A DNA stretch of 42,256 nucleotides from Clostridia bacterium. Lineage in GTDB: Bacteria > Bacillota > Clostridia > Oscillospirales > CAG-272. The notes beneath the pieces were generated by a model. The model searched no databases. It saw nothing but the letters and a program-made list of their open reading frames with translations, and was not told the DNA's origin. How positions within the stretch are numbered: position 1 is the first letter of the stretch; every line of letters begins with the position of its first letter. Below are positions 6,845-38,345 of the stretch, one piece after another. The translations under genes were made by a program, and so were the position numbers. Location of the stretch: NCBI GenBank assembly GCA_017550315.1, contig JAFZPN010000145.1:1-42256 (forward strand), given 5' to 3'.

Positions 6845-9358
6845 TCAGTCTGCGTTCCGGATCGTGAGCTTCATCCCCGCGGGACATACGACCGTCCAGC
6901 CGTCGAGCGAGCCCTCGTGCACGGTGAGGATGCAGGATCCTTCGTCGAACACCGCCGTCGCCATGCAGAAGCAGGTGATGACCGGAATCGTCAGGGGGAG
7001 CTCGGCGGGATCGAGGCGGAGGATCTTCTTTTCCGCGTCCACGGAGAGACCGGAGGCCGCCGGCATGGTAGTCCAGGACGAGAGCGGGCGGGTGTAGCGG
7101 AAACCGCATTCCCAGTGATCCCACAGCGCGCCGAACCGCCGCTGATTTTCGTGGATCGTCGTGACGAGCCGGTCGGCGTTATCTCGGTCCCCGACGCTCA
7201 CGGCGAGGGCGGCGACCGCATACCCGATCCCGGTCCAGTTCGCCTCCGCCTGGCAGTTGCGGTAGGTCAGGAGGCTGACGGGCGCAATGGGCGTGGCGTT
7301 GACCAGCCCGCCGTCCTGGGTCCAGTTCTTCGCCATGATTTCCCCGAGGACCGCGCGCACCCGCTCATCGGGCAGGTTGCCGCCGATCCCGGAGACCCGG
7401 AGGAACCACTCGCCGTCCAGCTGTGCAGTCATGAGGGAGGCGTCGTATTCCGTTCCGTTCTCATCGTCCCGCAGCCAGAGCAGGTAGTACCGCCCGTTCC
7501 ATAGCCGGCGCTCGAGCGAGTCAAGGCCCCGGGCGCGGAGTTCCTCCCACGCCTGCCGTCTCTCCTCGTCGCCCATGACCGCGGCGATGCGGGCGGCGGC
7601 CTTCAGGGCGGAGAGCCAGAGGACGGAGATATAGACCGGCGTTCCCGATAAGTTCCACGCGTCGTAGGTGTTGCGCTTCGTCTCCCGGTCGGGCAGGCCG
7701 TCCCCGTCCGCGTCGAGCGCAAGCATGGAGGCCATCGCGCGCTGCACGGGGATCCAGAGGCGTTCGAGATAGCCGCGGTCTCCCGTATGAAGGTAATCCC
7801 GGCAGACCATGAGGACGAACTGATGGTTCATATCGACGCGGTCGAAGCCGTTGTCCACGTGATCGAGGTCGGGCGTGAAAAAGTGGTGCACGCGCCCGTC
7901 CTCCCGCTGGAACTTGGCGCCCATCTCCATCTGGCGCAGCTGCAAATCCGGGAACAGCGCAAGCAGCCCGAACGAGGCGTGATAGGTGATGTCCGTCGTG
8001 TGGAAGCCGCAGAATCCGAGCCCCTCCCAGAGCCCGAACTTGCCGTCGCGGAGCAGCCACGAATCCTTCACGATGGTCGAGAGGTGCGCGCTCCACGATT
8101 CCGCATAGACTTCGGGCAGGCTCGTGCGGGTGAGAAGATCGGCGAAGCGCACGGCTCCGTCTTCGATGCGGTCCCGTCCTTCGGCGAGGAAGCGGTTTGC
8201 CGCGCGGGCGTCGGAGAAGCGGTTCTCGTACCAGTGGCCGAGGCGGTTGTGATACGCGCCGTAGTGATTCGGGAAGTACCATGACAGGATGAAGCGGACC
8301 TTTCTGCGCTCTCCCGCCCCGAGCGTCATCTTGCTGCACAGGGCGCAGGAACCGAAGCGGTCCCCCATCCGCGCGAGAGAGGACCGGCACGCCTCGAGGA
8401 AGGTCTCCCGCTCTTTGCGCGAATTCGGGAAATCCGGACGGATCGCACGCACGCGCCCAAGGAGCGACTGTGCGAAGGGATAGGCGGAGAGAACATCGGT
8501 CCTGCGCTCGATCGCCTCGTCCGTGAGCTCGTCGAGGCGATCCGGGATCGGTTCGGGACGACGACCGACCGTCGTGTCCGGCAGCTCGCCCGTCTCGCGG
8601 AAGCCGAAAAGGAACGATTCCTGCGATACGCCGAGATCGGAGTCCGCGATGTATTCGCGCAGGAAACGGAAGTTCTCGCCTGCGATATAGGAAATATCCC
8701 CGCCGTCGACGGACAGGCACAGCGAACCGCGGTCCGCTTCCCTGCTCCGCTCTTCCCACGGATGGGACGGGCGGGCAGAGAGAAGGATCTCCGTGCGGTC
8801 CCCATTCGCCGAGACCTCGTTTTCGCAGCCGTCGCGGTTGCAGAAACTCGGCTCAAGGGATGACAGCAGGCTGACCGTCACCGGCGTTTTATGGGGATTG
8901 AAGAGAGTGAAATCGAGATAGAACCCCGGTGTCGCGCTGTCCTCCGTACGATGCGGGACGAAAGGCGCGACGGCTCTCAGCCGCACGTCGACGGGAAGCG
9001 CGGCGTCCGCGTAGGCGAGATCACAGACGGGAAACCGCCCGTCAAAGACGATGCGTTCAACCGGTTTGTTCCACGGGAACATGCGGTAGGTGAAGTCCTC
9101 CCACGCCGTCTTCATGCCGAGCTTGCGCATGACGGGCGCCTCTCCCGCCCGCTCGGTGCGTACCCAGAACGAGAGCGCGCCCGTGGAGCCCTCTCCGTCG
9201 TCGGCCGGTCCTTCCCAGCAGCGGGATGCCCACCGGGGCGGATTGGCGATCTGCCAGGCGTGAAATTCGCCGTCCGGGAAGAGCTCGACCGATCCCGTTC
9301 CGATCCCGCCGAGCGCGATCCCGCTTTTATGTTGTGTTTCCGTGATGATGGTTGCCAT
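6845..9358 (-). CDS. GH116 beta-glycosidase (GBA2-like)
   Basis: This 837-residue protein opens with GIALGGIGTGSVELFPDG and HAWQI, the signature N-terminus of GH116 (acid beta-glucosidase/beta-xylosidase, GBA2-like). The barrel carries E445 in FGLWEGLGFCG (expected nucleophile) and D566 in TYDAWNLSG (expected acid/base), with DGDGLPD just before. Both catalytic positions are therefore present. The start at 9358 has GGAGG 7 bases upstream. There is no signal peptide, so it acts in the cytoplasm. It is the second gene after SBP2 (46-base gap), so its substrate is probably the glycan bound by SBP2. Family members split beta-glucosides, beta-xylosides or beta-GlcNAc; the sequence does not decide between them. 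Confidence 0.9.
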   Translation of the reverse strand: MATIITETQHKSGIALGGIGTGSVELFPDGEFHAWQIANPPRWASRCWEGPADDGEGSTGALSFWVRTERAGEAPVMRKLGMKTAWEDFTYRMFPWNKPVERIVFDGRFPVCDLAYADAALPVDVRLRAVAPFVPHRTEDSATPGFYLDFTLFNPHKTPVTVSLLSSLEPSFCNRDGCENEVSANGDRTEILLSARPSHPWEERSREADRGSLCLSVDGGDISYIAGENFRFLREYIADSDLGVSQESFLFGFRETGELPDTTVGRRPEPIPDRLDELTDEAIERRTDVLSAYPFAQSLLGRVRAIRPDFPNSRKERETFLEACRSSLARMGDRFGSCALCSKMTLGAGERRKVRFILSWYFPNHYGAYHNRLGHWYENRFSDARAANRFLAEGRDRIEDGAVRFADLLTRTSLPEVYAESWSAHLSTIVKDSWLLRDGKFGLWEGLGFCGFHTTDITYHASFGLLALFPDLQLRQMEMGAKFQREDGRVHHFFTPDLDHVDNGFDRVDMNHQFVLMVCRDYLHTGDRGYLERLWIPVQRAMASMLALDADGDGLPDRETKRNTYDAWNLSGTPVYISVLWLSALKAAARIAAVMGDEERRQAWEELRARGLDSLERRLWNGRYYLLWLRDDENGTEYDASLMTAQLDGEWFLRVSGIGGNLPDERVRAVLGEIMAKNWTQDGGLVNATPIAPVSLLTYRNCQAEANWTGIGYAVAALAVSVGDRDNADRLVTTIHENQRRFGALWDHWECGFRYTRPLSSWTTMPAASGLSVDAEKKILRLDPAELPLTIPVITCFCMATAVFDEGSCILTVHEGSLDGWTVVCPAGMKLTIRNAD

Positions 9359-11230: not shown

Positions 11231-12316
11231 ATGGCAGCTACCAGAAGAAAACTCCGCATCGGTTCCGTGGGGATCGGCGGAATGGGAAACGGGCATCTCG
11301 GCGCGCACGTCCTGAACAAGCGCGTTAAAATCGTCGCGCTGTGCGATCTGATCCCGGAGAAATGCGAACAGGCGATCGTTCGCCACAATCTCGATCCGAA
11401 AACCCATATCTACACGGATTTCCGTGAGATGATCGAAAAGGAAAAGCTGGATGCGGTGGATATTGCCACGCCCAACGATTTTCACTCCATCATCGCCGTC
11501 TATGCGCTGGAGCACGGTCTGCACGTCTTCTGCGAAAAGCCGGACGCGATCAACGCACAAGAGGCGGAAAAGATGAAAGCGGCGGCGGAGAAGGCGGACC
11601 GCGTGCTGATGGTCATGCGCAACAACCGGTATTACAGCAACTCGCAGTATCTGAAAAAGTACATCGAATCCGGCAAAGCGGGCGAGATCTACTGCGGACG
11701 CTGCGGATGGATCCGGCGGCGCGGCATCCCCGGCAAGGGCGGATGGTTCACTACCAAATCGAAGTCCGGCGGCGGTCCTCTGATCGACCTCGGCGTCCAC
11801 ATGATCGACCTCTCCATCTGGCTGATGGGCAATCCGAAGCCGGTGGCCGTCAGCGGGTGCACCTACAGCAAGTTCGCGGACAACGAAGCGGAAGCGGATT
11901 CCGAACACGCGGCGTTCGGCGAAAAGCAGAGCGGCGGCACCTTCGACGTGGAGGATCTGGCGATGGGCTTTATCCGCTTTGACAACGGGGCCTGCCTGCA
12001 GATCGAATTCTCGTGGGCTTCCAACATCGAGCAGGAAAAGCGTTTCGTCGAGCTGCGCGGCACGAAAGCCGGCTTCACGTGGAACGACGACGGCACCTGC
12101 GGCATCTGGACCGAGGACAAAAAGGGCAAACTGGTCGATCTGCATCCCGACTGCGGAGACATGGGCAACGGACATGCCCGCGCGCTGGAGCACTTTACCA
12201 AGATCGTGCTGGACGGCGCCGAAAAGGACTATGTCCCCGAGCAGGGCGTCAACATGATCAAGATCCTCGACGCCATCTACAAGTCCGCCGAGACCGGGCA
12301 TGAGGTCCTTCTCTGA
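11231..12316 (+). CDS. Gfo/Idh/MocA-family NAD(P)-dependent oxidoreductase
   Basis: This 361-residue protein has an N-terminal Rossmann fold with the dinucleotide loop GIGGMG (residues 14-19). The family EKP motif is at 102-104 (CEKPDA) and the probable active-site region is DLGVHMIDL with H190. Family members oxidise or reduce a hydroxyl of a sugar, inositol or derivative. I chose ATG at 11231, where AGGAGG lies 9 bases upstream and the fold begins. A longer in-frame extension to 10883 crosses the promoter and lacks an RBS. It is first in a six-gene plus-strand run and followed after 69 bases by a PHP-domain gene, a common pairing in sugar-acid and modified-sugar pathways. The exact substrate cannot be read from the sequence. 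Confidence 0.92.
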   Translation: MAATRRKLRIGSVGIGGMGNGHLGAHVLNKRVKIVALCDLIPEKCEQAIVRHNLDPKTHIYTDFREMIEKEKLDAVDIATPNDFHSIIAVYALEHGLHVFCEKPDAINAQEAEKMKAAAEKADRVLMVMRNNRYYSNSQYLKKYIESGKAGEIYCGRCGWIRRRGIPGKGGWFTTKSKSGGGPLIDLGVHMIDLSIWLMGNPKPVAVSGCTYSKFADNEAEADSEHAAFGEKQSGGTFDVEDLAMGFIRFDNGACLQIEFSWASNIEQEKRFVELRGTKAGFTWNDDGTCGIWTEDKKGKLVDLHPDCGDMGNGHARALEHFTKIVLDGAEKDYVPEQGVNMIKILDAIYKSAETGHEVLL

Positions 12317-12385
12317 TCCGGCCTCCCATCCGGACAATGATCGTTTAAAATCGAAATCATCCAGAACAGAAACGAGGGAAAAAGC

Positions 12386-13318
12386 ATGAAGAGACAGCAG
12401 GCATTCGGCGGCAGCGAAAAAATGCTCAAGGGCGGCCTTCACTGCCATACCAGACGTTCCGACGGCTCGGGAGAACCGGATGAGGTCATCCGGCTGCACG
12501 CGGCGAACGGATACGATTTTCTGGCGCTGACCGATCACCGTTTTTACAACTACAAGAATTTTGCGCCGGAGGTTCCCATCACCATCATCCCCGGCATGGA
12601 ATTCGACGGGACTTTCGCTCACGATCACGGCTTCCGCTGTTTCCACACCGTCTGCATCGGTCCCGCCAAGGAGGACGGCAACGGATACGACCAGGATGAG
12701 CGAGTGGACTCCGCCAGAACGACCGGACAGGAGGACTATCAGCCCTATCTCGACGCGATCCACGCGAAGGGAAACCTGACGATCCACTGCCATCCGGAGT
12801 GGAGCTGCACCTCCGCGCGGTATTTCGAGAAGCTGAAGGGCAATTTCGCGATGGAAATCTGGAACAGCGGCTGCGCCCTGAACTGCCACATGGACATGGA
12901 CGCCGCCTGCTGGGATGAGCTTCTCGGCCAGGGCATTCACATCTACGGCGTGGCGGTCGACGACGGTCACAGCATGAGGGATCACTGTAACGGCTGGGTG
13001 CGCGTCCGTGCGGAGAACAGCATCGCCTCCATTCTCGAAGCCCTGAAGGCGGGCAAATTCTACTCCTCCTGCGGACCGGAGATCTATGATTTCTATGTCG
13101 ACGGGGACAAGGCATACATCGACTGCTCCGCGGCCGCCGCGATCCGTATCCAGAGCGACATGCACCCCACGAGGATCGTCACCTCGGCCGACGGGTCGAT
13201 GACCCATGCGGAATTCGGCCTGAACAGCTGGCCGGGGAGCTACCGGTACGTCCGCATGACGGTGATCGACAAGGACGGCAAGTTCGCGTGGACCAATCCC
13301 ATCTGGCTGGACGAGTGA
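12386..13318 (+). CDS. PHP-domain metal-dependent phosphoesterase-like protein
   Basis: This 310-residue protein shows the PHP metal-site motifs in order: HCHTRRSDG (H19, H21, D26), TDHR (D50, H51), GMEFDG (E72), HCHPEW (H134, H136) and DDGHS (D192/D193, H195). These fit a trinuclear metal centre that hydrolyses a phosphoester. A C-terminal beta-rich segment follows from about residue 235. There is no signal peptide. A GAGGGA box precedes the ATG by about 7 bases. It lies between the oxidoreductase and the MBOAT cassette and probably shares their transcript. The substrate is unknown; sugar phosphate or nucleotide-sugar chemistry would fit the neighbours (inference). Confidence 0.85.
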   Translation: MKRQQAFGGSEKMLKGGLHCHTRRSDGSGEPDEVIRLHAANGYDFLALTDHRFYNYKNFAPEVPITIIPGMEFDGTFAHDHGFRCFHTVCIGPAKEDGNGYDQDERVDSARTTGQEDYQPYLDAIHAKGNLTIHCHPEWSCTSARYFEKLKGNFAMEIWNSGCALNCHMDMDAACWDELLGQGIHIYGVAVDDGHSMRDHCNGWVRVRAENSIASILEALKAGKFYSSCGPEIYDFYVDGDKAYIDCSAAAAIRIQSDMHPTRIVTSADGSMTHAEFGLNSWPGSYRYVRMTVIDKDGKFAWTNPIWLDE

Positions 13319-13382
13319 TCCGGCGGAGCGGTAGGCTGATGAAAATCAGAAAAACCGAAAACTAAGCTTTTGAGGCAACAAC

Positions 13383-13925
13383 ATGAATCGAATTATTTTT
13401 CGCCGGATCCATGCCGTTCTGCTGGCGCTCGTTTTGCTGACGGCTACCCTGTTCCTCGCGGGATGCTCGAAGGACAAGCCCGAGACCTCGGACGCGCCGG
13501 CATCCTCTTCGGAGAGTGCCGGTCAAGGCGTCTTCCTCCTTTTTAACGGACAGAAGCTGCACATCGGAGACGAATTTGCCGCTCTGAAGGACGCACTCGG
13601 TCCGGAGAGCATGCCCTGCGAGACCATCAAGCCCTGCGACCCGAACTCCGACGCGGTGTCGACGCTGTATTTCTACGACGGCGTGGAGATCATGGTGCAG
13701 GAAGACGGATCGATCGAATCCCTCTCGGTCGGCAGGGACAGCGAAGCCGCCTTACTGGGAGAGATCCGCCCGGGCTCGGACCCGGACGCGCTCAAAGCAA
13801 GCCTCGGTGATCCCTCGGATGAGAACGAATACGCGCTGATATACATCGTGGACAGCGTCTGGATCAATGCGTATCTCGACGAAGGCATCATCTCCGGCTT
13901 TTACATCACCTTTACCGTGAACTGA
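13383..13925 (+). CDS. Small lipoprotein with tandem BamE/BLIP-like halves, copy A
   Basis: This 180-residue lipoprotein has a signal peptide ending LAGC (Cys28) and a Ser/Glu-rich spacer. Two similar halves follow, each with a G-x-x-x-x-(A)LK-x-x-LG helix and then beta strands: GDEFAALKDALG (first) and GSDPDALKASLGDP (second). The first half contains C-D-P-N-S-D then YFYDG and a DG turn. The same signature recurs in the 171-residue protein at 16905-17420 (CDDNSD, HFYDG, GATRDEVKAALGEP), so the two are paralogues bracketing the MBOAT and DHHW genes. The fold guess (BamE/BLIP-like) is inference from the pattern. It should sit on the outer face of the membrane. A GAGG box precedes the ATG; no terminator separates it from the PHP gene. 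Confidence 0.8.
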   Translation: MNRIIFRRIHAVLLALVLLTATLFLAGCSKDKPETSDAPASSSESAGQGVFLLFNGQKLHIGDEFAALKDALGPESMPCETIKPCDPNSDAVSTLYFYDGVEIMVQEDGSIESLSVGRDSEAALLGEIRPGSDPDALKASLGDPSDENEYALIYIVDSVWINAYLDEGIISGFYITFTVN

Positions 13926-13931
13926 CCGCTC

Positions 13932-13943
13932 TCCCGCGCGGGA
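13932..13943. repeat. 12-base perfect palindrome before the MBOAT gene
   Basis: TCCCGCGCGGGA lies 6 bases after the stop of the first lipoprotein gene. With no T-tract it is not an intrinsic terminator; it could be an mRNA-processing or attenuation structure, or chance. Confidence 0.3.
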
Positions 13944-14006
13944 ACAGCCTGCCCTATTGAAACCCATGACGCAAACAACACAGACATCAGGAGAGGTTCT
14001 GCAGAT

Positions 14007-15413
14007 ATGACCTTCAGTTCCCTGACCTTTCTCTTCGTGTTCTTTCCGGTCACGTTTCTGCTCTACGCGGTGATCCGGAATCACACGGCGAGAAATATCC
14101 TTCTTGCGGCGGCAAGTCTGGTGTTTTACGCCTTCGGCGAACCGGTTGCCGTCATGATCATGCTGATTTCCATCGTCCTGAACTATGTCTGCGGGCGCGT
14201 CGCCGCCGGGACAAGATGGGATAGGCTCGCGGTGGTTTTCGCGGTACTTGTGAACATCGGTCTTCTGGCCGCGTACAAGTACACCGGCTTCTTCGTCCAG
14301 ATCGTCGACGGGCTCTTCCGGTTATCGATCCCGGTCCCGCAGATCCGGCTGCCGATCGGCATTTCCTTCTTCACCTTCCAGGGACTGAGCTATGTCATCG
14401 ACGTCTACCGCGACAAGAAAAACGTCCAGAAAAACCTGTTCTCGGTGCTTCTGTACATCTCCTTCTTCCCGCAGCTGATCGCCGGTCCCATCGTGCGCTA
14501 TGCCGACATCGCGGCGCAGATCAAGCAGCGCGAATTCACGCCCGACCGCATCGGCAGGGGCGTCTGCCGCTTTCTGTTCGGTCTGGCGAAAAAGGTGCTT
14601 GTGGCTAACCAAATGGGACTTTTGGCGGACAAGGTGTTCTCCTTCGGCGCGGGGCAGCTCTCGACCGGCACCGCCTGGATCGGCGCGGTCTGTTATTCCC
14701 TGCAGATCTTCTTCGATTTCTGCGGGTACAGCGACATGGCGATCGGTCTCGGGTGCATCTTCGGCTTTGATTTTCGCGAGAACTTCAACTATCCGTACAT
14801 CGCCGGCAGCATTCAGGATTTCTGGCGCAGATGGCACATCTCCCTGTCCACTTGGTTCAAGGAATATGTTTACATCCCGCTGGGCGGCAACCGCAAAGGG
14901 AACGCGAGAACGACGCTCAACAAGTGGATCATCTTCTTCCTGACCGGCCTGTGGCACGGCGCGAACTTTACGTTCATTCTCTGGGGCCTGTGGCACGGAC
15001 TCTGGCAGATGCTCGAAACCTATCAGATCGTGCCGACGAAGAAAGCCTGGTTCAAGCCCCTCGGCCACGTCTATACCCTGCTCGTGGTGATCGTCGGCTT
15101 TGTGCTGTTCCGCGCGGACACGCTTGCACAGGGCTTCGGCGTCCTCGGGGCGATGTTCTGGCCGACCGGCGGAGATGGCGGCGCGGTTTCGGAGATCCTC
15201 GCGCTGTTAAACCCCTTGTTCTTCCTCAGCTTCGGCTTCGCCCTCCTGCTCTCGACGCCCGTCTTCCGCGTCCTGCGGCAGAAGGCGGAGGAAACAGGTC
15301 GATGCGCTGTATACAACTATGCGGCGTATGCGGGTTCGCTCGCGCTCTTCGCGCTGTCGGTGCTGTCCCTCGTATCGAGCAGCTATAACCCGTTCATCTA
15401 TTTCCGGTTTTGA
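14007..15413 (+). CDS. AlgI-type MBOAT O-acyltransferase
   Basis: This 468-residue polytopic membrane protein carries the AlgI/PatA/DltB-like MBOAT signatures: PIGISFFTFQGLSYVIDVYR, FFPQLIAGPIVRY, DFCGYSDMAIG, and the core block NFNYPY...DFWRRWHISLSTWF...YVYIPLGG. The conserved catalytic His lies in the later block TGLWHGANFTF. It should pass an acyl (usually acetyl) group across the membrane to a partner that places it on an exported polymer. An AGGAGAGG box lies upstream of the ATG at 14007. The stop is 15 bases before the DHHW gene, so the two are probably translated together. In relatives this pair O-acetylates exopolysaccharide or peptidoglycan; the polymer here is not encoded in the window. 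Confidence 0.95.
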   Translation: MTFSSLTFLFVFFPVTFLLYAVIRNHTARNILLAAASLVFYAFGEPVAVMIMLISIVLNYVCGRVAAGTRWDRLAVVFAVLVNIGLLAAYKYTGFFVQIVDGLFRLSIPVPQIRLPIGISFFTFQGLSYVIDVYRDKKNVQKNLFSVLLYISFFPQLIAGPIVRYADIAAQIKQREFTPDRIGRGVCRFLFGLAKKVLVANQMGLLADKVFSFGAGQLSTGTAWIGAVCYSLQIFFDFCGYSDMAIGLGCIFGFDFRENFNYPYIAGSIQDFWRRWHISLSTWFKEYVYIPLGGNRKGNARTTLNKWIIFFLTGLWHGANFTFILWGLWHGLWQMLETYQIVPTKKAWFKPLGHVYTLLVVIVGFVLFRADTLAQGFGVLGAMFWPTGGDGGAVSEILALLNPLFFLSFGFALLLSTPVFRVLRQKAEETGRCAVYNYAAYAGSLALFALSVLSLVSSSYNPFIYFRF

Positions 15414-15428
15414 GAGGAGGAAAACAGC

Positions 15429-16880
15429 ATGAAAAAAGCCTTCAAAATCGCGTATATCGTCCTGTTCTTCACCCTGCTCTGCCTGCCGATGCTCCTCATG
15501 CCGTTTTTCAAGAACGACAGCACTCTGGAAAAGCGCTCGCTCGCCAAGCTGCCGTCCTATCTCGAAGACGGGCGGCTGAACCTCGATTTCTCCGATCAAT
15601 TTGAATCGTACGCGAGCGACCATTTTCCGCTGCGCGCAGAACTTCTGACAGCTTCCAATACGATCAAAGGCGAGCTGCTTCACGCGCAGAGCTCCAATGT
15701 GATCGTCGGCAGGGACGGCTGGCTGTTCTTCAATTCCGAACAGGCGGACTTTCTGAACACGAACGCGCTCACGGACCGGCAGATCCGCTCGATCGCCGTC
15801 ACGCTCTCGCTGATCGAGGAGGATATCACGGGCCGCGGCGGACGCTTCGCCTTCGTACCCGTGCCGAACAAATCGACCGTTTACGGCGAGAAGATGCCCC
15901 CCACCTTCCGCCGGTCGTCCGAGAACAATCTGACCCGGCTGACGGAAGAGCTCACCCGGAGCGGCGTCTCCTTCACCGATCTGCGGGGGATCCTCCTCGC
16001 ATCCAAGGATCAGACGATCTATCACCGCCGCGATTCCCATTGGAATTACCGGGGCGCTCTCATCGGCTGGGGTGCCGTCATGGACACCCTCGGCAAAGAA
16101 CACGAGACCTATGCGGGTGCCGCCTATACGGTCGAGAACATCTGGCGCGGCGACCTCGACAAACTGCTGCTCCCGGCTGGCGGGGTGATGGACGAGCAGG
16201 TGGTGTATCAGATCGACCACGACAGCTTCCGCTTCACCTATTCCATGGGCGTTAGCGATCAGGCGGCGCAGCTTGCAAACTACATGAGCGACCGGGAGGA
16301 GCGCGACGATCTGTTCACCGCGCAGAATCTGGACCACAAGGACGGCAGCCGGCTCTACATGGTCCGCGACTCCTTCGGCCGGGCCCTCCTGCCCTTCATG
16401 ATCGACAGCTATGAGACATCGACCTTCAAGCGCACGGACTGCCCCAATGTCGCCTCCATCGAAGACGGGACCGACCTGATCTATGAGATCGCGGAACGCA
16501 ACCTGCACCGGATCATCGAGACCGCGCCGTTCTTATATGCGCCCCTCCGGGAGGGCATCTCGGCGGACGGTCTTCCCATCGGCGGCGAAATCGAAGGGCA
16601 CACGGAGACGACGGGCTATGGCACGCGGCTCTACGGTTCCCTGCCGGACGATCTGCCCGCCGGGGACTGCCGCGTCTATCTCGTGCTCGAACAGGACGGC
16701 GGGACCGTCACGCTCGAAGCCTTCCCGATCCACGAGGCAAGGCTCCTCGGCGACGGCGGCAAGAACGGCTATTCCGCGATCCTCTCCGAAGAGCTCGGCC
16801 TGTCCGGGACCTACCGTGTCACGGTCATCGCCGAGGGTACCGCATTCCCCTGCGGCACATTCACCGCAGGAACAGAATAA
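15429..16880 (+). CDS. DHHW/AlgX-AlgJ-like SGNH acyltransferase partner of MBOAT
   Basis: This 483-residue protein has one N-terminal membrane anchor (about residues 5-26) and an extracellular SGNH-type domain. Motifs seen are QFESYASDHFPLR (DHHW-family start), DGWLFF, PVPNKSTVY, RDSHWN (D202, H204) and VRDSFGRALLP (D314, S315). Ser315 with Asp202/His204 forms the expected catalytic set of AlgX/AlgJ-like O-acetyltransferases. A C-terminal beta-rich domain follows from about residue 380. AGGAGG lies 8 bases before the ATG, 15 bases after the MBOAT stop. It should take the acyl group exported by the MBOAT protein and transfer it to a polysaccharide. Confidence 0.9.
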   Translation: MKKAFKIAYIVLFFTLLCLPMLLMPFFKNDSTLEKRSLAKLPSYLEDGRLNLDFSDQFESYASDHFPLRAELLTASNTIKGELLHAQSSNVIVGRDGWLFFNSEQADFLNTNALTDRQIRSIAVTLSLIEEDITGRGGRFAFVPVPNKSTVYGEKMPPTFRRSSENNLTRLTEELTRSGVSFTDLRGILLASKDQTIYHRRDSHWNYRGALIGWGAVMDTLGKEHETYAGAAYTVENIWRGDLDKLLLPAGGVMDEQVVYQIDHDSFRFTYSMGVSDQAAQLANYMSDREERDDLFTAQNLDHKDGSRLYMVRDSFGRALLPFMIDSYETSTFKRTDCPNVASIEDGTDLIYEIAERNLHRIIETAPFLYAPLREGISADGLPIGGEIEGHTETTGYGTRLYGSLPDDLPAGDCRVYLVLEQDGGTVTLEAFPIHEARLLGDGGKNGYSAILSEELGLSGTYRVTVIAEGTAFPCGTFTAGTE

Positions 16881-16904
16881 AACGAATCCACAGGAGGAAC
16901 CAAG

Positions 16905-17420
16905 ATGAAAAAAGTCATTTCCCTTTTACTGGCACTGCTCGTCGTCGCGCTGTGCGCGGGCTGCGGCAAAAACGACGCGTCCGCGGGATCGGATTCCGCG
17001 GGAGCGAATACGGCTGCCGACGGCATCTATATCACGGTCAGCGGCCAGAATCTCACGCTGGGGATCCCCTACGCGGGCGTGAAGGATCAGCTCGGCGAGG
17101 AGACGCAGCCTGCCGAAGTCCTGACGTCCTGCGACGACAATTCCGACTGGCAGCAGACGATGCACTTCTATGACGGCGTCATCGTCACGGAGGACAAGGA
17201 CGGCAACATCGACGGCGTTCAGGTGAGCGGCGGCGATTCCGCGCTGATAGGCAAGATCAAAATCGGCGCGACGAGGGACGAGGTCAAAGCAGCGCTCGGC
17301 GAGCCGGATACCGACCAGACCTGGGGCATCTATTACACCACGACGAATCCCTGGGTCAATATCTACGTCGACGAGGAGACGGGACTGGTCACCGGTTTCG
17401 CGCTCATGCCGTCGATGTGA
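16905..17420 (+). CDS. Small lipoprotein with tandem BamE/BLIP-like halves, copy B
   Basis: This 171-residue lipoprotein has a signal peptide ending LCAGC (Cys20; Cys at -3 is slightly atypical). It is paralogous to the 180-residue lipoprotein at 13383-13925: CDDNSD, HFYDG, a DGNIDGV turn and GATRDEVKAALGEP align with CDPNSD, YFYDG, DGSIESL and GSDPDALKASLGDP. Each protein also repeats the LK/VK-x-x-LG helix internally (GIPYAGVKDQLGE in the first half here). AGGAGG lies 7 bases upstream. It is last in the plus-strand run and is followed by a strong terminator. The location suggests an outer-surface accessory of the O-acylation complex (inference). Confidence 0.8.
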   Translation: MKKVISLLLALLVVALCAGCGKNDASAGSDSAGANTAADGIYITVSGQNLTLGIPYAGVKDQLGEETQPAEVLTSCDDNSDWQQTMHFYDGVIVTEDKDGNIDGVQVSGGDSALIGKIKIGATRDEVKAALGEPDTDQTWGIYYTTTNPWVNIYVDEETGLVTGFALMPSM

Positions 17421-17456
17421 TCCCGGCTTGATGAAAATACCCTAAGCAAAAGAAAT

Positions 17457-17500
17457 GCACCTCAAAGACCGCCGGGCCTTTGAGGTGCTTCTCTTGTTTG
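17457..17500. terminator. Bidirectional rho-independent terminator
   Basis: Perfect 11-bp stem GCACCTCAAAG (17457-17467) / CTTTGAGGTGC (17478-17488), 10-base loop, then TTCTCTTGTTT. On the minus strand the stem is followed by ATTTCTTTT. It closes both the MBOAT unit and the convergent beta-helix unit. Confidence 0.9.
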
Positions 17501-17558
17501 TGATTTCCTTTTTCAACCCTACGGATCTGCCGGGAAGGAATCGGGATAAACGTCCCGG

Positions 17559-19592
17559 TTACGGATGTCTGCGTCCCATTTCACCGAAGGGAATGGGCGC
17601 AAATCCCGGGATCATCGCCGGCAGGACCGTTTCGCAGAGCACGCAGAGATCCTCCGTCGGCGGTTCTGCGAGCTCCGTATTGTTCTCCACCCGGTTATGG
17701 AAGCGCGGATCGTCCCACCGGAAATTGATGTCGATGGGCTTGTGGCCGATGAGCACGTTTCCGGACAGGTCGCAGTAGTGGGGACAGCACTGTTCGGTCT
17801 CGGGATCCCAGGTCAGGTATTCGGCGAGGTGCGGATAGGCCTGCCGCCAGAGGTCGCTCTGCCACGGAACGGCCCTGAGTCCCGCCTCGTGCGTGCCGCC
17901 GGGGAGCAGATCGTCCCAGTAGCCGTACCGGTGGAAGCGGATGGAGTACACGGACTTCGGGCATGCGCCGAGGATCAGATTCCCGGAAAAAGTCATGTCG
18001 TGTCCGCCGTGGAGCAGCAGGGCCGACTGGCAGCGCACGAACACGTTCTGCTCGATATCGCAGGAGCCGAGATTGTCGTCGCAGTACATGCCGAAGATTC
18101 CGATATGGCTGTCCGCGTCGCTGTGCATGTCGTGGAAATAGTTCCGGAACACGACGTTCCCGGAGCAGGTGTAGTCCCGTCCGGCATAGATGGCCGAGGA
18201 ATCGTCCGCGATCTTGCAGACCTCGTAGATCTCGTTGTATTCCATCCGGTGGTTGTTCCCGCCGAACAGGATCGCGGCGTGTGCGGAATCGTGGATCTCG
18301 TTGTGCCGTACGACCGTTCCGACGCCGGAGAGCCGCACCGCCGGGTTGTAGGTCCGGAAGATCTCGGCGATGTGGTGGATGTGGTTGTTTTCGATCACAT
18401 GGCCGGAGGGCGTGAGGGTTGCGCGGTCGCCGCCCGAGACGGAGATCCCGCCCTTCCCCGTCCGGGAGATCTCGCAGTCCCGGATCAGGCAGTCCCGACC
18501 ATCCAGCAGGATCGCCCAGCCCGCCACATTGCGGATCTCGCAGTTCTCCACCGTGAGGCAGGTACCCGTGAGATGCAGCGCGTCGCCCCGGGTGCACGTG
18601 AAGCAGAGGTTTCTCACCGTGATGTGCGCGCCGTCCTCGATCCGGAGCAGGTTGTCCGTCAGGAGGGAGAGACGGATCTCCGCCCCCGCGAGCGGCACGG
18701 CGGGATAGAGATACAAAATCCCCATCTCCCGGTCGAGATACCATTCGCCCGGCGCGTCCAGCTCTTCAAAAATGTTGTAGAAATAGTATGGCGCGTGCGG
18801 CTTCATGCCGTAGAGGGAGACCCACGCCGTCTCCATCCGGCAGGCTTCGGGATCCACGGACTTAAGCGGCGAGGACATGTCCGCCCATCCGTACATCGGA
18901 TAGCCGAACATCCAGACCCCGTCGAGGCTTTTCCATCCCGCCACGCGGCACGCGGTCTCCCCGTCGATCGAATAGATGTCGGAGACCGGATTGCGGACCT
19001 TCGCCCACTCTTCGCCGGACAGTTTTTTCCGCCCCGTGGTCTCGAGCCCCGCGCCTTCCCGGACCGGTTCGCCGGAAAAGAGGAAGCCTTCGTTCGGATA
19101 CCGCGCGATCTCCTGCCGGGTCCCGTTGACGAACAGCTCGCACCACATCGGGGAGAGGACCGCGCCGTCGTACTTATTCCCGGTGTGGTAGGTCCCGATG
19201 GCGCAGAGCTCGCCCCAGTCCTCCCGCGTCAGGCCGAGCGCGGTCAGATCGCACCGGACGACCGCCTCCCGCGCGCTGCCGTGCAGACGTGCCTTCTCCT
19301 CTTCCGTCAGAGGACCGAATAAACCGGGATCGAGCGTCATGCCGCCGCAGATCACCGCGCCGTCCTCGCCCTCCCACACGACGGGCGCATCCGCCGATCC
19401 GGAGTCGCGCGCGTCCAGCGTCATACCCGCCGTCCGGTATTCTCCGGGACCGAGATGAACGGTCACCCCTTCCCCCGGATGCTCCCGCAGAAAGCCGCGA
19501 ACGGCATCCCGCGCTTCCTCTGGCGCTGCAAACGGTCTTTCCTTCGATCCGTCGCCGCCCGGTCCCGCTGTCTTTGCTACGTAGAAGTTCAT
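17559..19592 (-). CDS. Right-handed parallel beta-helix carbohydrate-active protein (GH141-like candidate)
   Basis: This 677-residue protein opens with FYVAKTAGPGGDGSKERPFA and EEARDAVRGFL, the start typical of parallel beta-helix glycan enzymes. MWCELFVNGTRQEIARYPNEGF then appears at about residue 165. From about 300 to 600 it shows repeated short rungs rich in N-x-I/V and HxIH (ENNHIHHIAEIFRTYN, RHNEIHDSAHAAI, EYNEIYEV). This pattern fits GH141 and related pectin/xylan-acting beta-helix proteins; the catalytic residues cannot be assigned by eye. No signal peptide is present. GGAGG precedes the ATG by 5 bases. It follows the SGNH hydrolase gene after 17 bases, so deacylation plus chain cleavage of one polymer is likely. 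Confidence 0.75.
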   Translation of the reverse strand: MNFYVAKTAGPGGDGSKERPFAAPEEARDAVRGFLREHPGEGVTVHLGPGEYRTAGMTLDARDSGSADAPVVWEGEDGAVICGGMTLDPGLFGPLTEEEKARLHGSAREAVVRCDLTALGLTREDWGELCAIGTYHTGNKYDGAVLSPMWCELFVNGTRQEIARYPNEGFLFSGEPVREGAGLETTGRKKLSGEEWAKVRNPVSDIYSIDGETACRVAGWKSLDGVWMFGYPMYGWADMSSPLKSVDPEACRMETAWVSLYGMKPHAPYYFYNIFEELDAPGEWYLDREMGILYLYPAVPLAGAEIRLSLLTDNLLRIEDGAHITVRNLCFTCTRGDALHLTGTCLTVENCEIRNVAGWAILLDGRDCLIRDCEISRTGKGGISVSGGDRATLTPSGHVIENNHIHHIAEIFRTYNPAVRLSGVGTVVRHNEIHDSAHAAILFGGNNHRMEYNEIYEVCKIADDSSAIYAGRDYTCSGNVVFRNYFHDMHSDADSHIGIFGMYCDDNLGSCDIEQNVFVRCQSALLLHGGHDMTFSGNLILGACPKSVYSIRFHRYGYWDDLLPGGTHEAGLRAVPWQSDLWRQAYPHLAEYLTWDPETEQCCPHYCDLSGNVLIGHKPIDINFRWDDPRFHNRVENNTELAEPPTEDLCVLCETVLPAMIPGFAPIPFGEMGRRHP

Positions 19593-19609
19593 ACCGACCT
19601 CCTTGATGG

Positions 19610-20710
19610 TTATAGCACGAGGAACGCCCCGATCCGGAGCATGTGTCCCTCGGATTCCTCTGCCTTATCCGCCGATACCCAAAGCCGGAGCGTATGCTCC
19701 CCTTCCGGTAGATCCCTGATCACGCACGCGGCATTGGCGCGGTTGAACGATTTGCAGTAATGATCCCAGGACCGGACGGAGAATGCATTCCCTCCGTCCA
19801 CGGAGCAGAACGCGTCTCCGCTGTCCTTCGCCATCATCCAGTAGAGTCCGACCTGCCGGCCCATGAAGCGGAAGGTGAGTTCTCCGCCCGGCTCGCCGCA
19901 TGCGAGGTAACGCGGATACCGTCCGCAGAGAGACTCTTCTTTGAGAGTCCAACATTTGTCCGCCGCGGCTTCCCGGCAATCCACGATCCGCGCGCGCATG
20001 TGAGATTCCTCCTCCGGCACGAGCGGGGAGGGCAGTTCGTAGGTTCTCAGCCCGTCGAGCGGTTCCGCGCCGTCGATCCATCTGCCGAGCGATTCCCGGA
20101 TCACGTCCGCGCAGATCGCGTATCCGGCGTCGTTCGGATGGACCGTATCCGTGGTATAGCGCAGCCAGTCCGCCTCGTCCGCGCGGGGAGAGCCTTCCGC
20201 GAGCACACGGTGCCGCAGTGCTTCCCCGATGTCAATCTGCGGGATGCCGTACCGGAACGATACCGCTCCGTGCGCCGTTTTCGCGGGCTGAACCCAGCCG
20301 GCTGCCATTCGGTCGGAGAGGTATTTCGTCGTCGTGTAAACCGTCACGATCTCCGCCGCGGGATTTGCGGTCCGGATTTTACGGAAGCACGCTTCGGTGT
20401 TCTTCACGGCGGTGAGAAAATCCATCCCGCTGTCATTCACTGCGAACTCATAGAATACGAGATCCGGCTCCGCCTCGCACACATCTCGCTCGCAGCGGTG
20501 GACGCCGAGGGTGGAATCCGTCCCGCCGATCGCCGCCTGCACGGGCCGGATCGCACATGCAGGAAACCGCTCCCGGAGCCAAGCGGTGGTCAGTCCCGCC
20601 CAACTCGACGCGTAAGAGCTTGCTCCCGCCCCTTCCGTGATGGATCCGCCGAAATACGCGACGGTCAATCCGAGGCCGTGTTTCAATTTGTACGCTGTAT
20701 TTTCAAGCAT
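19610..20710 (-). CDS. Two-domain SGNH/GDSL carbohydrate esterase-like hydrolase
   Basis: This 366-residue protein shows all SGNH blocks: GGSIT (Ser23), AIGGTDS (Gly), FAVND (Asn92) and DTVHPND (Asp188, His191). A second beta-rich domain of about 150 residues (about 215-366) may be a carbohydrate-binding or lid domain. There is no signal peptide. It should remove acyl groups from imported sugars, matching the beta-helix gene downstream. AGGAGGAG lies 6 bases before ATG at 20710. It is first in its unit, with its own promoter at 20761-20789. Confidence 0.88.
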   Translation of the reverse strand: MLENTAYKLKHGLGLTVAYFGGSITEGAGASSYASSWAGLTTAWLRERFPACAIRPVQAAIGGTDSTLGVHRCERDVCEAEPDLVFYEFAVNDSGMDFLTAVKNTEACFRKIRTANPAAEIVTVYTTTKYLSDRMAAGWVQPAKTAHGAVSFRYGIPQIDIGEALRHRVLAEGSPRADEADWLRYTTDTVHPNDAGYAICADVIRESLGRWIDGAEPLDGLRTYELPSPLVPEEESHMRARIVDCREAAADKCWTLKEESLCGRYPRYLACGEPGGELTFRFMGRQVGLYWMMAKDSGDAFCSVDGGNAFSVRSWDHYCKSFNRANAACVIRDLPEGEHTLRLWVSADKAEESEGHMLRIGAFLVL

Positions 20711-20760
20711 GATCGTCTCCTCCTTACGCGGATAGATTGCCGCTTTCCGCGCTTTGCTTC

Positions 20761-20789
20761 ATTATAGCAGAAAATCCCCGTCCGCGCAA
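20761..20789 (-). promoter_or_regulatory. Promoter for the SGNH-beta-helix unit
   Basis: Minus strand: TTGCGC (20789-20784), 17-base spacer, perfect TATAAT (20766-20761). It is divergent from the perfect promoter at 20889-20917. Confidence 0.75.
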
Positions 20790-20797
20790 GTCCTTCG

Positions 20798-20814
20798 GCG
20801 GATTCCGGATCCGC
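20798..20814. repeat. Inverted repeat between divergent promoters
   Basis: GCGGAT (20798-20803), 5 bases, ATCCGC (20809-20814), just upstream of the minus-strand -35 box. It has the same 6-5-6 geometry as the repeat at 11165-11181 but a different sequence. It is a candidate operator only. Confidence 0.3.
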
Positions 20815-20888
20815 GGATGCCGCTGCGCCGCACGAGGAGACGGACCCTGTGTTTTTTCGCCGATCTCGGGAGACTGCCCGCTCCTCTC

Positions 20889-20917
20889 TTGACATCCGCC
20901 CCGACTTTCTGTATAAT
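20889..20917 (+). promoter_or_regulatory. Perfect consensus sigma-70 promoter for GH92
   Basis: TTGACA (20889-20894), 17-base spacer, TATAAT (20912-20917): twelve of twelve consensus bases. The GH92 start codon is 61 bases downstream. Confidence 0.93.
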
Positions 20918-20978
20918 ACAGGTAAACAACCCATCCCGGCGCAAAACCCGCCGCTTTGGATTCTCCGGAGGTATTCCC

Positions 20979-23045
20979 ATGAAAACGCCCGCCGCATCCG
21001 TCAATCCCTATATCGGGACCATCGGCCATCTGCTGCGCGCCACCCGTCCGATCACCGCTCTCCCCCACAGCTGGGCGCAGATCTTTCCCACCGTCACCCC
21101 GGACGTGACCGATTATTTCATCGCGGATCAGATCGCGTCCTTCCCCGCCGGGCCCTTGCAGATCGCGTTTGCACCGGCTGGCGCGTCCGACGCTGGGGAG
21201 GCCGTCTCGTACTTCGACGTCACGGCGGTCGAGTCCCATCCCTACGCGTTCGAGGTCTTCCTCGAGGACACCGGGATCGACGTATGCGGGACCACGGCAA
21301 TGCATTCCTTCGTTTACCGTGCAGAGGGAGCCGGTACGGTCTTCCTCCGTGCGCGCGGCGCGGTCTATGCGGAAAAGGACGGCGCGCTCCTCATCGAGGC
21401 GCCGGAGGGCAAACGGGGACGGCGCGCCTATCTTCTTCTGACGCTGTCCTGTCCCTTTGCCGTCGAGATCCGCGGTGAGGAGGCCGTGCTGACGGGGATC
21501 TCTTCTCCCTGCGAGCTGTACGCGGCCATGTCCTACATCTCCCCGGAAAAAGCAGCGGAGATATATCGGCGCGAACTGGAAGGCAAGGATTTTGCGGCCG
21601 TCTGCGCGGAATCGAAGGCGGTCTGGGAGGATCTGCTCGGGCGGATCGAGGTCTCAGGCGGATCGGAGGATGCGCGGATCGCGTATTACACCGCGCTGTA
21701 CCGGAGCTTCGGCAAGATGTTCCAGTACGGCGAGTACGGAAGCTACTATTCCGGGTATGACGGGAAGGTGCACGACGGCGAATTCTATACGGTGGATCAG
21801 CTCTGGGACAGCTTCCGCTCCATGCATCCCCTCCAGCTTCTCCTGGAACCGGAAAGGCACCGGGTCATGCTCGACAGCTACACCGAAATGTACCGGCAGA
21901 CCGGCGCGATGCCCTCCTTCCCTTCCGCCGACGGGGACCGGCCCGTGATGATCGGATTCCATGCGGCCGCCCTCTATACCGACGCGCTCGCCAAGGGGAT
22001 CCCGGCGGATTTTGAAACGGCTTATCGGGGGATCCGGCGCAATGCCACCGAGATCTCCATGCTCCCGTGGGTGGGCGACGTCCCGGCGGGTGAACTCGAA
22101 CGGTGCTACTACGAAAAGGGATTCTTCCCCGCCCTCGAGGACGGTCAGAAGGAATGGATCCCCGAAGCCGATTCCTTCGAGCGGCGGCAGAGCGTGGCCG
22201 TGACGCTCGAACACGCCTACGACGACTGGTGCGCGGCGCAGCTGGCAAAGCATCTCGGGTACGAAGACGATTACCGGCTCTTCTCCCGCCGGGCAAAGAA
22301 CTACCGGAACGTGTACAACCGCGCAATCGGCTTCATGGCGCCGAAAAACGCCGACGGCGAGTGGATTCGGGGCTACGATCCCATGCGGGGCGGCGGTCAG
22401 GGCGGTCGGGCGTTCTTCGCGGAATGCAACGCCTATACCTTCAATTTCTCCGTCTGGCACGACATCGAAGGGCTGGCGGAACTCATGGGAGGACCGGATG
22501 CGCTGGCGGATCGCCTCGATGAGCTCTTCACCACACCCGCCCCCGGGAAATACGGCTTCCTCGATCAGTTCCCGGATTCGACGGGCCTGATCGGTATGTT
22601 CTGCATGGGGAATGAGCCGTCCTTCCACATCCCGTATTTCTATAACTACGTCGGGAAACCCTGGATGGCCCAGCGGCGGCTCCGGACGATCATGGATCTC
22701 TGGTTCACCAATTCCCCGCTCGGCATCTGCGGAGACGAGGACAGCGGGGCCATGTCGTCCTGGTTCGCCTTCTCCGGCATCGGGCTTTATCCCGTCTGTC
22801 CCGGCAAGCCGGATTACGCCCTGTCCTCGCCCATCTTCGACGAGGTCCGGATCAAGACGGCGGGCGGAGAGTTCGTCATCCACGCACAAGGCGCGGGCGA
22901 GGGTATGCGGTACATTCAGTCCGCGGCGCTCAACGGCACGCCGCTGAACAGAGCCTTCCTCACCCACGGCGAACTCGTATCGGGCGGCGAGCTGGTCCTC
23001 GCGATGGGCCCCCGTCCGAACAAATCCTGGGGCACGGGACACTGA
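20979..23045 (+). CDS. GH92 alpha-mannosidase
   Basis: This 688-residue protein begins SVNPYIGT and carries the GH92 blocks: LWDSFRSMHPL (about 275), GFHAAALYTDALAKG (about 326), then GNEPSFHIPYFYNYVG (N545-E546) and GDEDSGAMSSWFAFSGIGLYPVCPG. GH92 enzymes are calcium-dependent exo-alpha-mannosidases acting on N-glycans or mannans; linkage (1,2/1,3/1,4/1,6) is not readable here. The N-terminal beta-domain is shorter and more divergent than in typical 720-760-residue members. I chose ATG at 20979 because CGGAGG lies 7 bases upstream; the longer open frame crosses the promoter. There is no signal peptide, so it is cytoplasmic. It shares a transcript with the HD gene. Confidence 0.93.
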   Translation: MKTPAASVNPYIGTIGHLLRATRPITALPHSWAQIFPTVTPDVTDYFIADQIASFPAGPLQIAFAPAGASDAGEAVSYFDVTAVESHPYAFEVFLEDTGIDVCGTTAMHSFVYRAEGAGTVFLRARGAVYAEKDGALLIEAPEGKRGRRAYLLLTLSCPFAVEIRGEEAVLTGISSPCELYAAMSYISPEKAAEIYRRELEGKDFAAVCAESKAVWEDLLGRIEVSGGSEDARIAYYTALYRSFGKMFQYGEYGSYYSGYDGKVHDGEFYTVDQLWDSFRSMHPLQLLLEPERHRVMLDSYTEMYRQTGAMPSFPSADGDRPVMIGFHAAALYTDALAKGIPADFETAYRGIRRNATEISMLPWVGDVPAGELERCYYEKGFFPALEDGQKEWIPEADSFERRQSVAVTLEHAYDDWCAAQLAKHLGYEDDYRLFSRRAKNYRNVYNRAIGFMAPKNADGEWIRGYDPMRGGGQGGRAFFAECNAYTFNFSVWHDIEGLAELMGGPDALADRLDELFTTPAPGKYGFLDQFPDSTGLIGMFCMGNEPSFHIPYFYNYVGKPWMAQRRLRTIMDLWFTNSPLGICGDEDSGAMSSWFAFSGIGLYPVCPGKPDYALSSPIFDEVRIKTAGGEFVIHAQGAGEGMRYIQSAALNGTPLNRAFLTHGELVSGGELVLAMGPRPNKSWGTGH

Positions 23046-38291: not shown

Positions 38292-38345
38292 GTTTTTCTC
38301 CTCCGCAATCTGTAACTGGCACGTTGTCAAGGATGCAAATCTGCT

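Follow-up and report, generated by a model that had tools for sequence, protein, structure and literature searches.

What do two small lipoproteins contribute to a pair of acylation genes that they enclose? The question is raised by a stretch of 42,256 nucleotides from a Clostridia bacterium (contig JAFZPN010000145.1; the whole stretch is called the window here), in which four genes on one strand encode a lipoprotein, an MBOAT protein, an SGNH protein and another lipoprotein. A preliminary description had reported this arrangement at 13383-17420 and had read it as a single complex. The arrangement itself is confirmed by the open reading frames (ORFs) and their Pfam matches:

13383..13925, + strand: lipoprotein 1 (P0001, 180 amino acids), with lipobox Cys28 and a second conserved Cys85; profile A2, of which P0001 is itself a row, matches it with E 9.6e-35
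14007..15413, + strand: AlgI-type MBOAT acyltransferase (P0002, 468 amino acids), PF03062 E 7.9e-35, with FIYFRF at the C-terminus
15429..16880, + strand: AlgX/DHHW-type SGNH protein (P0003, 483 amino acids), PF16822 E 5.8e-21 and PF14286 E 2.1e-10, with DSHW at 202 and DSFG at 314
16905..17420, + strand: lipoprotein 2 (P0004, 171 amino acids), with lipobox Cys20 and a second conserved Cys76; profile A2, of which P0004 is itself a row, matches it with E 7.3e-37

The enzymes are of a known kind; their partner is unusual. We lean, if only slightly, towards reading the cassette as an extracytoplasmic O-acylation unit in which the lipoproteins would act as membrane-anchored, non-enzymatic accessory subunits. 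Gene set, motifs, paralogy of the lipoproteins, recurrent linkage and cysteine retention can be read from the sequences, and on these grounds the lipoprotein family looks like a missing part of the surface acylation machinery, including that of teichoic acid D-alanylation, in many Clostridia.

The recurrent linkage was counted in two sets of loci. The GTDB set was collected from the lipoprotein alone, with a search pattern that includes the second cysteine; of 314 relatives in named genomes, it comprises the best 80 in a ranking by similarity to a dlt-like member. The hand-picked set comprises 99 loci from pairwise matches to P0004 and matches to profile A2, of which 98 were counted (one has no lipoprotein ORF); it leaves out most weak matches of an A2 search of 394 genomes and three other A2 matches. 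The trimmed profile A2 replaced a pairwise P0004 search of the order, which had given matches in 47 of the 394 genomes, many of them to signal peptides. Both sets overlap, with nine lipoproteins identical over their last 100 amino acids, and the pooled 178 loci retain these repeats. The neighbourhood was taken as 8 kb, and loci that extend 6.5 kb or more to each side were considered to have full flanks. The controls were 40 windows of 16 kb at hand-picked positions on 20 contigs, 19 from lipoprotein-positive genomes.

Among the 40 GTDB loci with full flanks, 37 had an MBOAT gene, 39 an SGNH gene, 39 at least one of these two, 36 an AMP ligase and 36 a transglutaminase-like protein (T). The control windows contained MBOAT, SGNH, T or the lipoprotein in 0 of 40 cases and an AMP ligase in two. 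For the complete GTDB set, MBOAT was found at 66 of the 80 loci, and 10 of the remaining 14 have less than 3 kb on one side. The corresponding numbers for the 98 hand-picked loci were 74 (MBOAT), 83 (SGNH), 84 (T) and 50 (ligase), and for the 69 of them with full flanks 54 (MBOAT), 60 (SGNH) and 58 (T). Since neighbours in the first loci supplied the sequences for the MBOAT, SGNH, ligase and T profiles, these associations had been noticed before they were counted. Homologues situated mostly away from MBOAT genes, the outcome that the preliminary description had regarded as fatal to its proposal, were thus not what we found: the linkage of the lipoproteins to MBOAT-SGNH acylation genes recurs across Clostridia and extends to dlt operons. 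At the genome level, all 63 of the 394 genomes with an A2 match (E 1e-5 or better, weak matches included) possess an MBOAT gene, compared to 338 of 394 overall (lists compared by eye; hypergeometric 2.5e-5). In a sample of the phylum outside the class, matches were present in 36 of 398 genomes, none better than E 7e-15. Relatives are also present in complete genomes, e.g., that of Anaerocolumna sedimenticola CBA3638 (locus L217).

To describe the loci, we use a letter code: T for the transglutaminase-like protein, A for the ligase, C for the carrier, M for MBOAT, X for an AlgX-like protein, d for DltD, L for the lipoprotein, and D for an SGNH protein without any Pfam or NCBIfam family above its cut-off. 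The commonest order among the 178 loci was T-A-C-M-D-L (61), followed by T-L (13), A-C-M-D-T-L (12) and L alone (10, several of them at contig ends). Dlt-type loci had the orders L-T-A-M-C-d (6) and L-T-A-M-d (3), and loci of the AlgX kind M-X-T-L (9), T-M-X-L (4) and M-X-L (2), plus single cases. The window cassette, L-M-X-L, is of the AlgX kind. Its bracketed order was found at 0 of the 178 other loci; one lipoprotein is usual, and several copies occur at L081 and L142, both dlt-type. What survives from the preliminary description is therefore the link between lipoproteins and acylation, which the recurrent linkage supports well, and not the special four-protein complex defined by its bracket.

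The association with dlt genes is exemplified by locus L058, where a relative of the lipoproteins heads an operon with matches above cut-off to DltA (487 bits, cut-off 476, NF003417), DltB (452, cut-off 375), DltC (79, cut-off 68) and DltD (314, cut-off 150); this DltA stays below the equivalog TIGR01734 (476 of 560). T-A-C-M-D-L loci such as L065, L068 and L217 resemble dlt operons in encoding an AMP ligase and a carrier, and the C-terminus of their MBOAT also carries FIYxxF. They thereby combine features that are held separate in the available part of PMC12148441. Their SGNH proteins, where scanned, reached no Pfam or NCBIfam cut-off. Asp/Glu racemase genes (PF01177) are found at L217:2399-3166 and L069:1839-2537, and the racemase motif was present at 27 of 63 ligase-bearing GTDB loci, a figure that stands without a control count. 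At racemase-bearing loci, a D-amino acid different from D-alanine may be what is transferred.

The two enzymes were assigned in the preliminary description as an AlgI-type MBOAT and a DHHW/AlgX-like SGNH protein with visible catalytic residues, and we came to the same assignment. P0002 reached 121.2 bits with the MBOAT model PF03062 (cut-off 27), and P0003 reached 75.8 bits with the ALGX model (cut-off 26.5) and also exceeded the Pfam cut-off of DHHW (PF14286). P0002 has WHG at positions 316 and 329, and FIYFRF at 463-468 forms the end of the protein; in P0003, DSHW and DSFG correspond to the D-x-H and Ser motifs. By analogy, the residues of these motifs are of a catalytic type. The FXYXXF motif is described in the available part of PMC12148441 as an acyl shuttle, where the MBOAT acylates its tyrosine, which then becomes the donor for the SGNH protein; according to the same part of that paper, a carrier protein is absent from MBOAT/SGNH pathways except Dlt. 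In our two sets, 121 of 126 MBOAT ORFs longer than 400 amino acids (repeats included) end in F-x-Y-x-x-[FYV], and the other five end in FIYGGTFN (4) or FIYQTQF.

The MBOAT and SGNH pair thus described probably adds small acyl groups, presumably acetyl, to a cell-surface polymer. In the mechanism that we propose, the MBOAT would move the acyl group from the cytoplasm onto the tyrosine in the FIYFRF peptide at its own C-terminus, and the SGNH protein would take it onto its serine and then esterify the polymer; this sequence from acyl group to tyrosine, SGNH protein and polymer is taken from related proteins, as described in PMC12148441. The lipoproteins would keep the SGNH transferase or its polymer in place at the membrane, or direct it there; the second cysteine that they conserve would belong to the working site, and a duplication would have yielded two versions of the lipoprotein. 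We infer the acyl group, the adaptor role, any contact among the proteins, and the polymer itself.

P0001 and P0004 are paralogues, as had been proposed, with 56 of 151 positions identical (37%; BLASTP, 112 bits, E 2e-36). They have in common the C-D-x-N-S-D motif (PCDPNSD/SCDDNSD), FYDG and a third motif (GSDPDALKASLGDP/GATRDEVKAALGEP). In the collected set they are reciprocal best matches, the next best matches having 49 and 48 bits. Because they are mutual nearest relatives there, a local duplication is likely, and the second lipoprotein of the window probably arose in this way. The host genome contains four matches to profile A2: both window genes, a third on contig C147 (E 1.7e-19) and, weakly, a fourth on contig C137 (E 5.1e-9). 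Both window proteins have what defines the family, i.e., an A2 match, a lipobox cysteine and the second cysteine motif; as the 13 rows of A2 include both of them, their match is partly by construction, and the pairwise search prior to A2 had already linked them to other members. The N-terminal half of alignment A4 aligns with the C-terminal half (hhalign E 1.2e-4, probability 55%), suggesting a tandem repeat, so that the lipoproteins are probably two copies of a small repeat. Relatives in which the match is confined to the N-terminal half, the one with the cysteine, lie beside MBOAT-AlgX genes (L160:7610-8185 and L162:7642-8307) and in a dlt-type locus (L142:12378-12656).

No Pfam or NCBIfam family reaches its cut-off with P0001 or P0004. 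AlgF, which the preliminary description had excluded, was rejected as their identity, since no AlgF match appeared among the Pfam families at E up to 10; Pfam presumably includes an AlgF model. Membership in DUF7738 (PF24880), to which the N-termini show weak likeness, was rejected at 19.7 and 16.7 bits versus 24.6 needed. The N-terminus of P0004 also resembles BamE weakly, with 15.6 bits, below the Pfam cut-off. Sequence searches of the PDB gave matches that were weak or to the signal peptide; among them was a BLIP-like match, 3d4e (E 0.0038), which was absent from the list obtained with a larger alignment. Among the open-access PMC papers listed by searches on MBOAT, SGNH, DHHW, dlt, AlgF and DUF7738, none has a title or an opening part of the abstract with a description of this family.

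The second cysteine was analyzed in the hand-picked set together with the window (n=104), because the GTDB search pattern contains this residue. The lipobox cysteine is present in all 104 ORFs, and the second cysteine in 99 of them in a MAFFT alignment and in 98 in the profile alignment. All 98 members with the second cysteine have MBOAT, SGNH or T in the vicinity, versus one of the six members without it. For loci with full flanks, the ratio of members in and out of this context was 75:0 with the second cysteine and 1:4 without it (Fisher 3e-6; the loci are related by descent, and Fisher values take them as independent). Since the six cysteine-less members are distant ones, the cysteine correlates not only with context but also with subfamily. 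For 173 members of both sets, the number of cysteines after the lipobox was one (68), two (48), three (19), none (5) or more (3), and the lipobox pattern was unmatched in 30. MBOAT-SGNH and Dlt systems determine the charge of the cell surface and how well it withstands lytic enzymes and peptides, and a lipoprotein family whose cysteine is retained in their context and mostly missing elsewhere is a testable candidate for a missing part of these systems in many Clostridia.

Which MBOATs have such a partner? In a tree of 47 MBOATs, the lipoprotein-linked ones formed three groups: A-C-M-D (99/89), the AlgX type (99/99), which includes the window MBOAT, and DltB (100/100). Seven MBOATs labelled lipoprotein-free lie outside these groups; the groups had been named beforehand, the seven are few negatives, and the label of one of them, L146 (10480), is a judgement, as a lipoprotein gene lies less than 3 kb away on the other strand in an apparently separate operon. 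The three separate groups suggest separate recruitment or separate loss. When the MBOATs from 194 genomes of the family are ranked by similarity to P0002, 15 of the top 22 lie no more than about 8 kb from a lipoprotein match (hand comparison), and no lower-ranked one, among the matches listed, is on a contig with a lipoprotein match; the line at row 22, the last positive row, was drawn post hoc. Therefore, the partner tracks a subclade and not MBOATs at large.

Several observations weigh against an accessory role in acylation. The remaining seven of these 22 MBOATs have no lipoprotein match on their contig, and 15 of the 69 hand-picked loci with full flanks have no MBOAT. In the host genome, only two of eight MBOAT loci have a lipoprotein within 8 kb, so it is not a general requirement of acylation. 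At seven of the 80 GTDB loci in six genomes (L164, L165, L166, L167, L169, L179 and L181; L164 and L165 belong to the same genome record, as separate contigs), the SGNH protein and the lipoprotein share a single ORF, and these shared frames keep the hydrophobic lipobox stretch between both domains; this mid-frame position would make the topology puzzling if a single protein is produced. Finally, T lies near the lipoprotein about as often as MBOAT does (36 of 40 GTDB loci with full flanks and 84 of 98 hand-picked loci).

The last point leads to another explanation, in which the lipoprotein works together with the exported T, which would act on it or be positioned by it, perhaps via the conserved cysteine, and MBOAT is nearby since the envelope-modification locus travels as a whole. 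The frequency of T, compared to its absence from the 40 controls, agrees with this, as do the T-L or L-T pairs that stand alone at 17 of the 178 loci, several of them cut by contig ends. Furthermore, the 152 T hits, which include repeats, all retain a Cys and a His, and 151 of them retain an Asp; the analysis assigned these residues as a putative triad. A profile search of the 42-kb window detected no T despite the doubled lipoprotein, and the lipoproteins there therefore accompany MBOAT and SGNH alone; loci of the orders M-X-L (2) and D-L (6) have no T in the cluster either. We consider the explanation unlikely. Exported T proteins, which often accompany the lipoprotein, in dlt operons too, may carry choline-binding repeats (L058:2823-3872) or Ig-like domains (L132:10730-13339).

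A function connecting both kinds of neighbours is conceivable, although we give it little credence: by means of its cysteine, the family would serve Gram-positive surface acylation as an extracytoplasmic carrier or as a covalent anchor and would work with MBOAT-SGNH and T, where the acyl or aminoacyl group passes over the thiol or is fixed to it. If true, such a thiol carrier or anchor would be a step absent from the Dlt and Pat models as far as the parts of the sources used here describe them. The narrower version, in which the lipoprotein is an acyl acceptor or carrier whose conserved cysteine takes up the group as a thioester on its way from the shuttle tyrosine to the SGNH serine, appears slightly less credible still. 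It would explain why 98 of 104 members retain the cysteine, all of them in context, with one of six cysteine-less members there; however, the tyrosine shuttle motif is kept in the same operons, so no further relay is needed, and the members without the cysteine belong to the distant ones, too. That the lipoprotein is a surface protein without any role in acylation, linked by chance or through a general envelope gene island, is very improbable: five solitary members of the hand-picked set indeed have no MBOAT, SGNH or T nearby, but all five lack the second cysteine, the control windows, free of all three genes, exclude chance, and T-A-C-M-D-L recurs 61 times.

The accessory role that we favour has a parallel in alginate O-acetylation by AlgI, AlgJ, AlgX and AlgF, which likewise combines an MBOAT with an SGNH protein of the AlgX type and a small exported partner that is not catalytic. 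AlgF is required for this O-acetylation and its function is given as unknown in the accessible part of PMC4148444. Unlike AlgF, the window lipoproteins have a lipobox and no AlgF match, and a Pfam scan of 14 window proteins found no alginate genes. Peptidoglycan O-acetylation by PatA/PatB and the PatA1/PatB1 system of Bacillus cereus resemble the cassette in the combination of an MBOAT with an SGNH or DHHW transferase (PMC9487903, in the part available) and in the C-terminal FXYXXF motif (PMC12148441, likewise). In contrast to the cassette, no lipoprotein partner is described for them in the portion of PMC12148441 considered, whose main text contains the word 'lipoprotein' 0 times. Teichoic acid D-alanylation (DltABCDX) is similar in that lipoprotein relatives head dlt operons such as that of L058; Dlt operons that include a T gene and a lipoprotein of this kind were not encountered among the open-access PMC papers listed by the searches. 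The window cassette itself was rejected as a Dlt system, since no profile for ligase, carrier or DltD gave a hit in the window.

The intergenic gaps of the cassette are 81, 15 and 24 bases from P0001 to P0004, and the four genes are presumably transcribed together; no sigma-70-like site was found in 12200-17700. The cassette is followed by:

17457..17488, no strand assigned: hairpin with a 14-pair stem between the cassette and a convergent beta-helix gene, terminator-like on the - strand only

The + strand of this stretch (17440-17510) has a fold z of -5.7, and seven terminator-like sites were found in the region compared to 4.6 expected in shuffles. A foreign origin was rejected on composition, as the cassette (GC 0.596) shows no sign of it relative to the window (0.602). 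When P0003 was searched against 21 genomes of the genus, many of them 70-80% complete, some match was found in 19, and the best ones outside the window had 34-37% identity; at this identity, no close copy of the cassette was seen in these genomes. The surroundings encode glycoside hydrolases (families 2, 116, 92 and 95), a beta-helix protein and a GDSL esterase (3817-6747, 6845-9358, 17559-20710, 20754-23045 and 35682-38330), and the esterase could be a remover of acyl groups.

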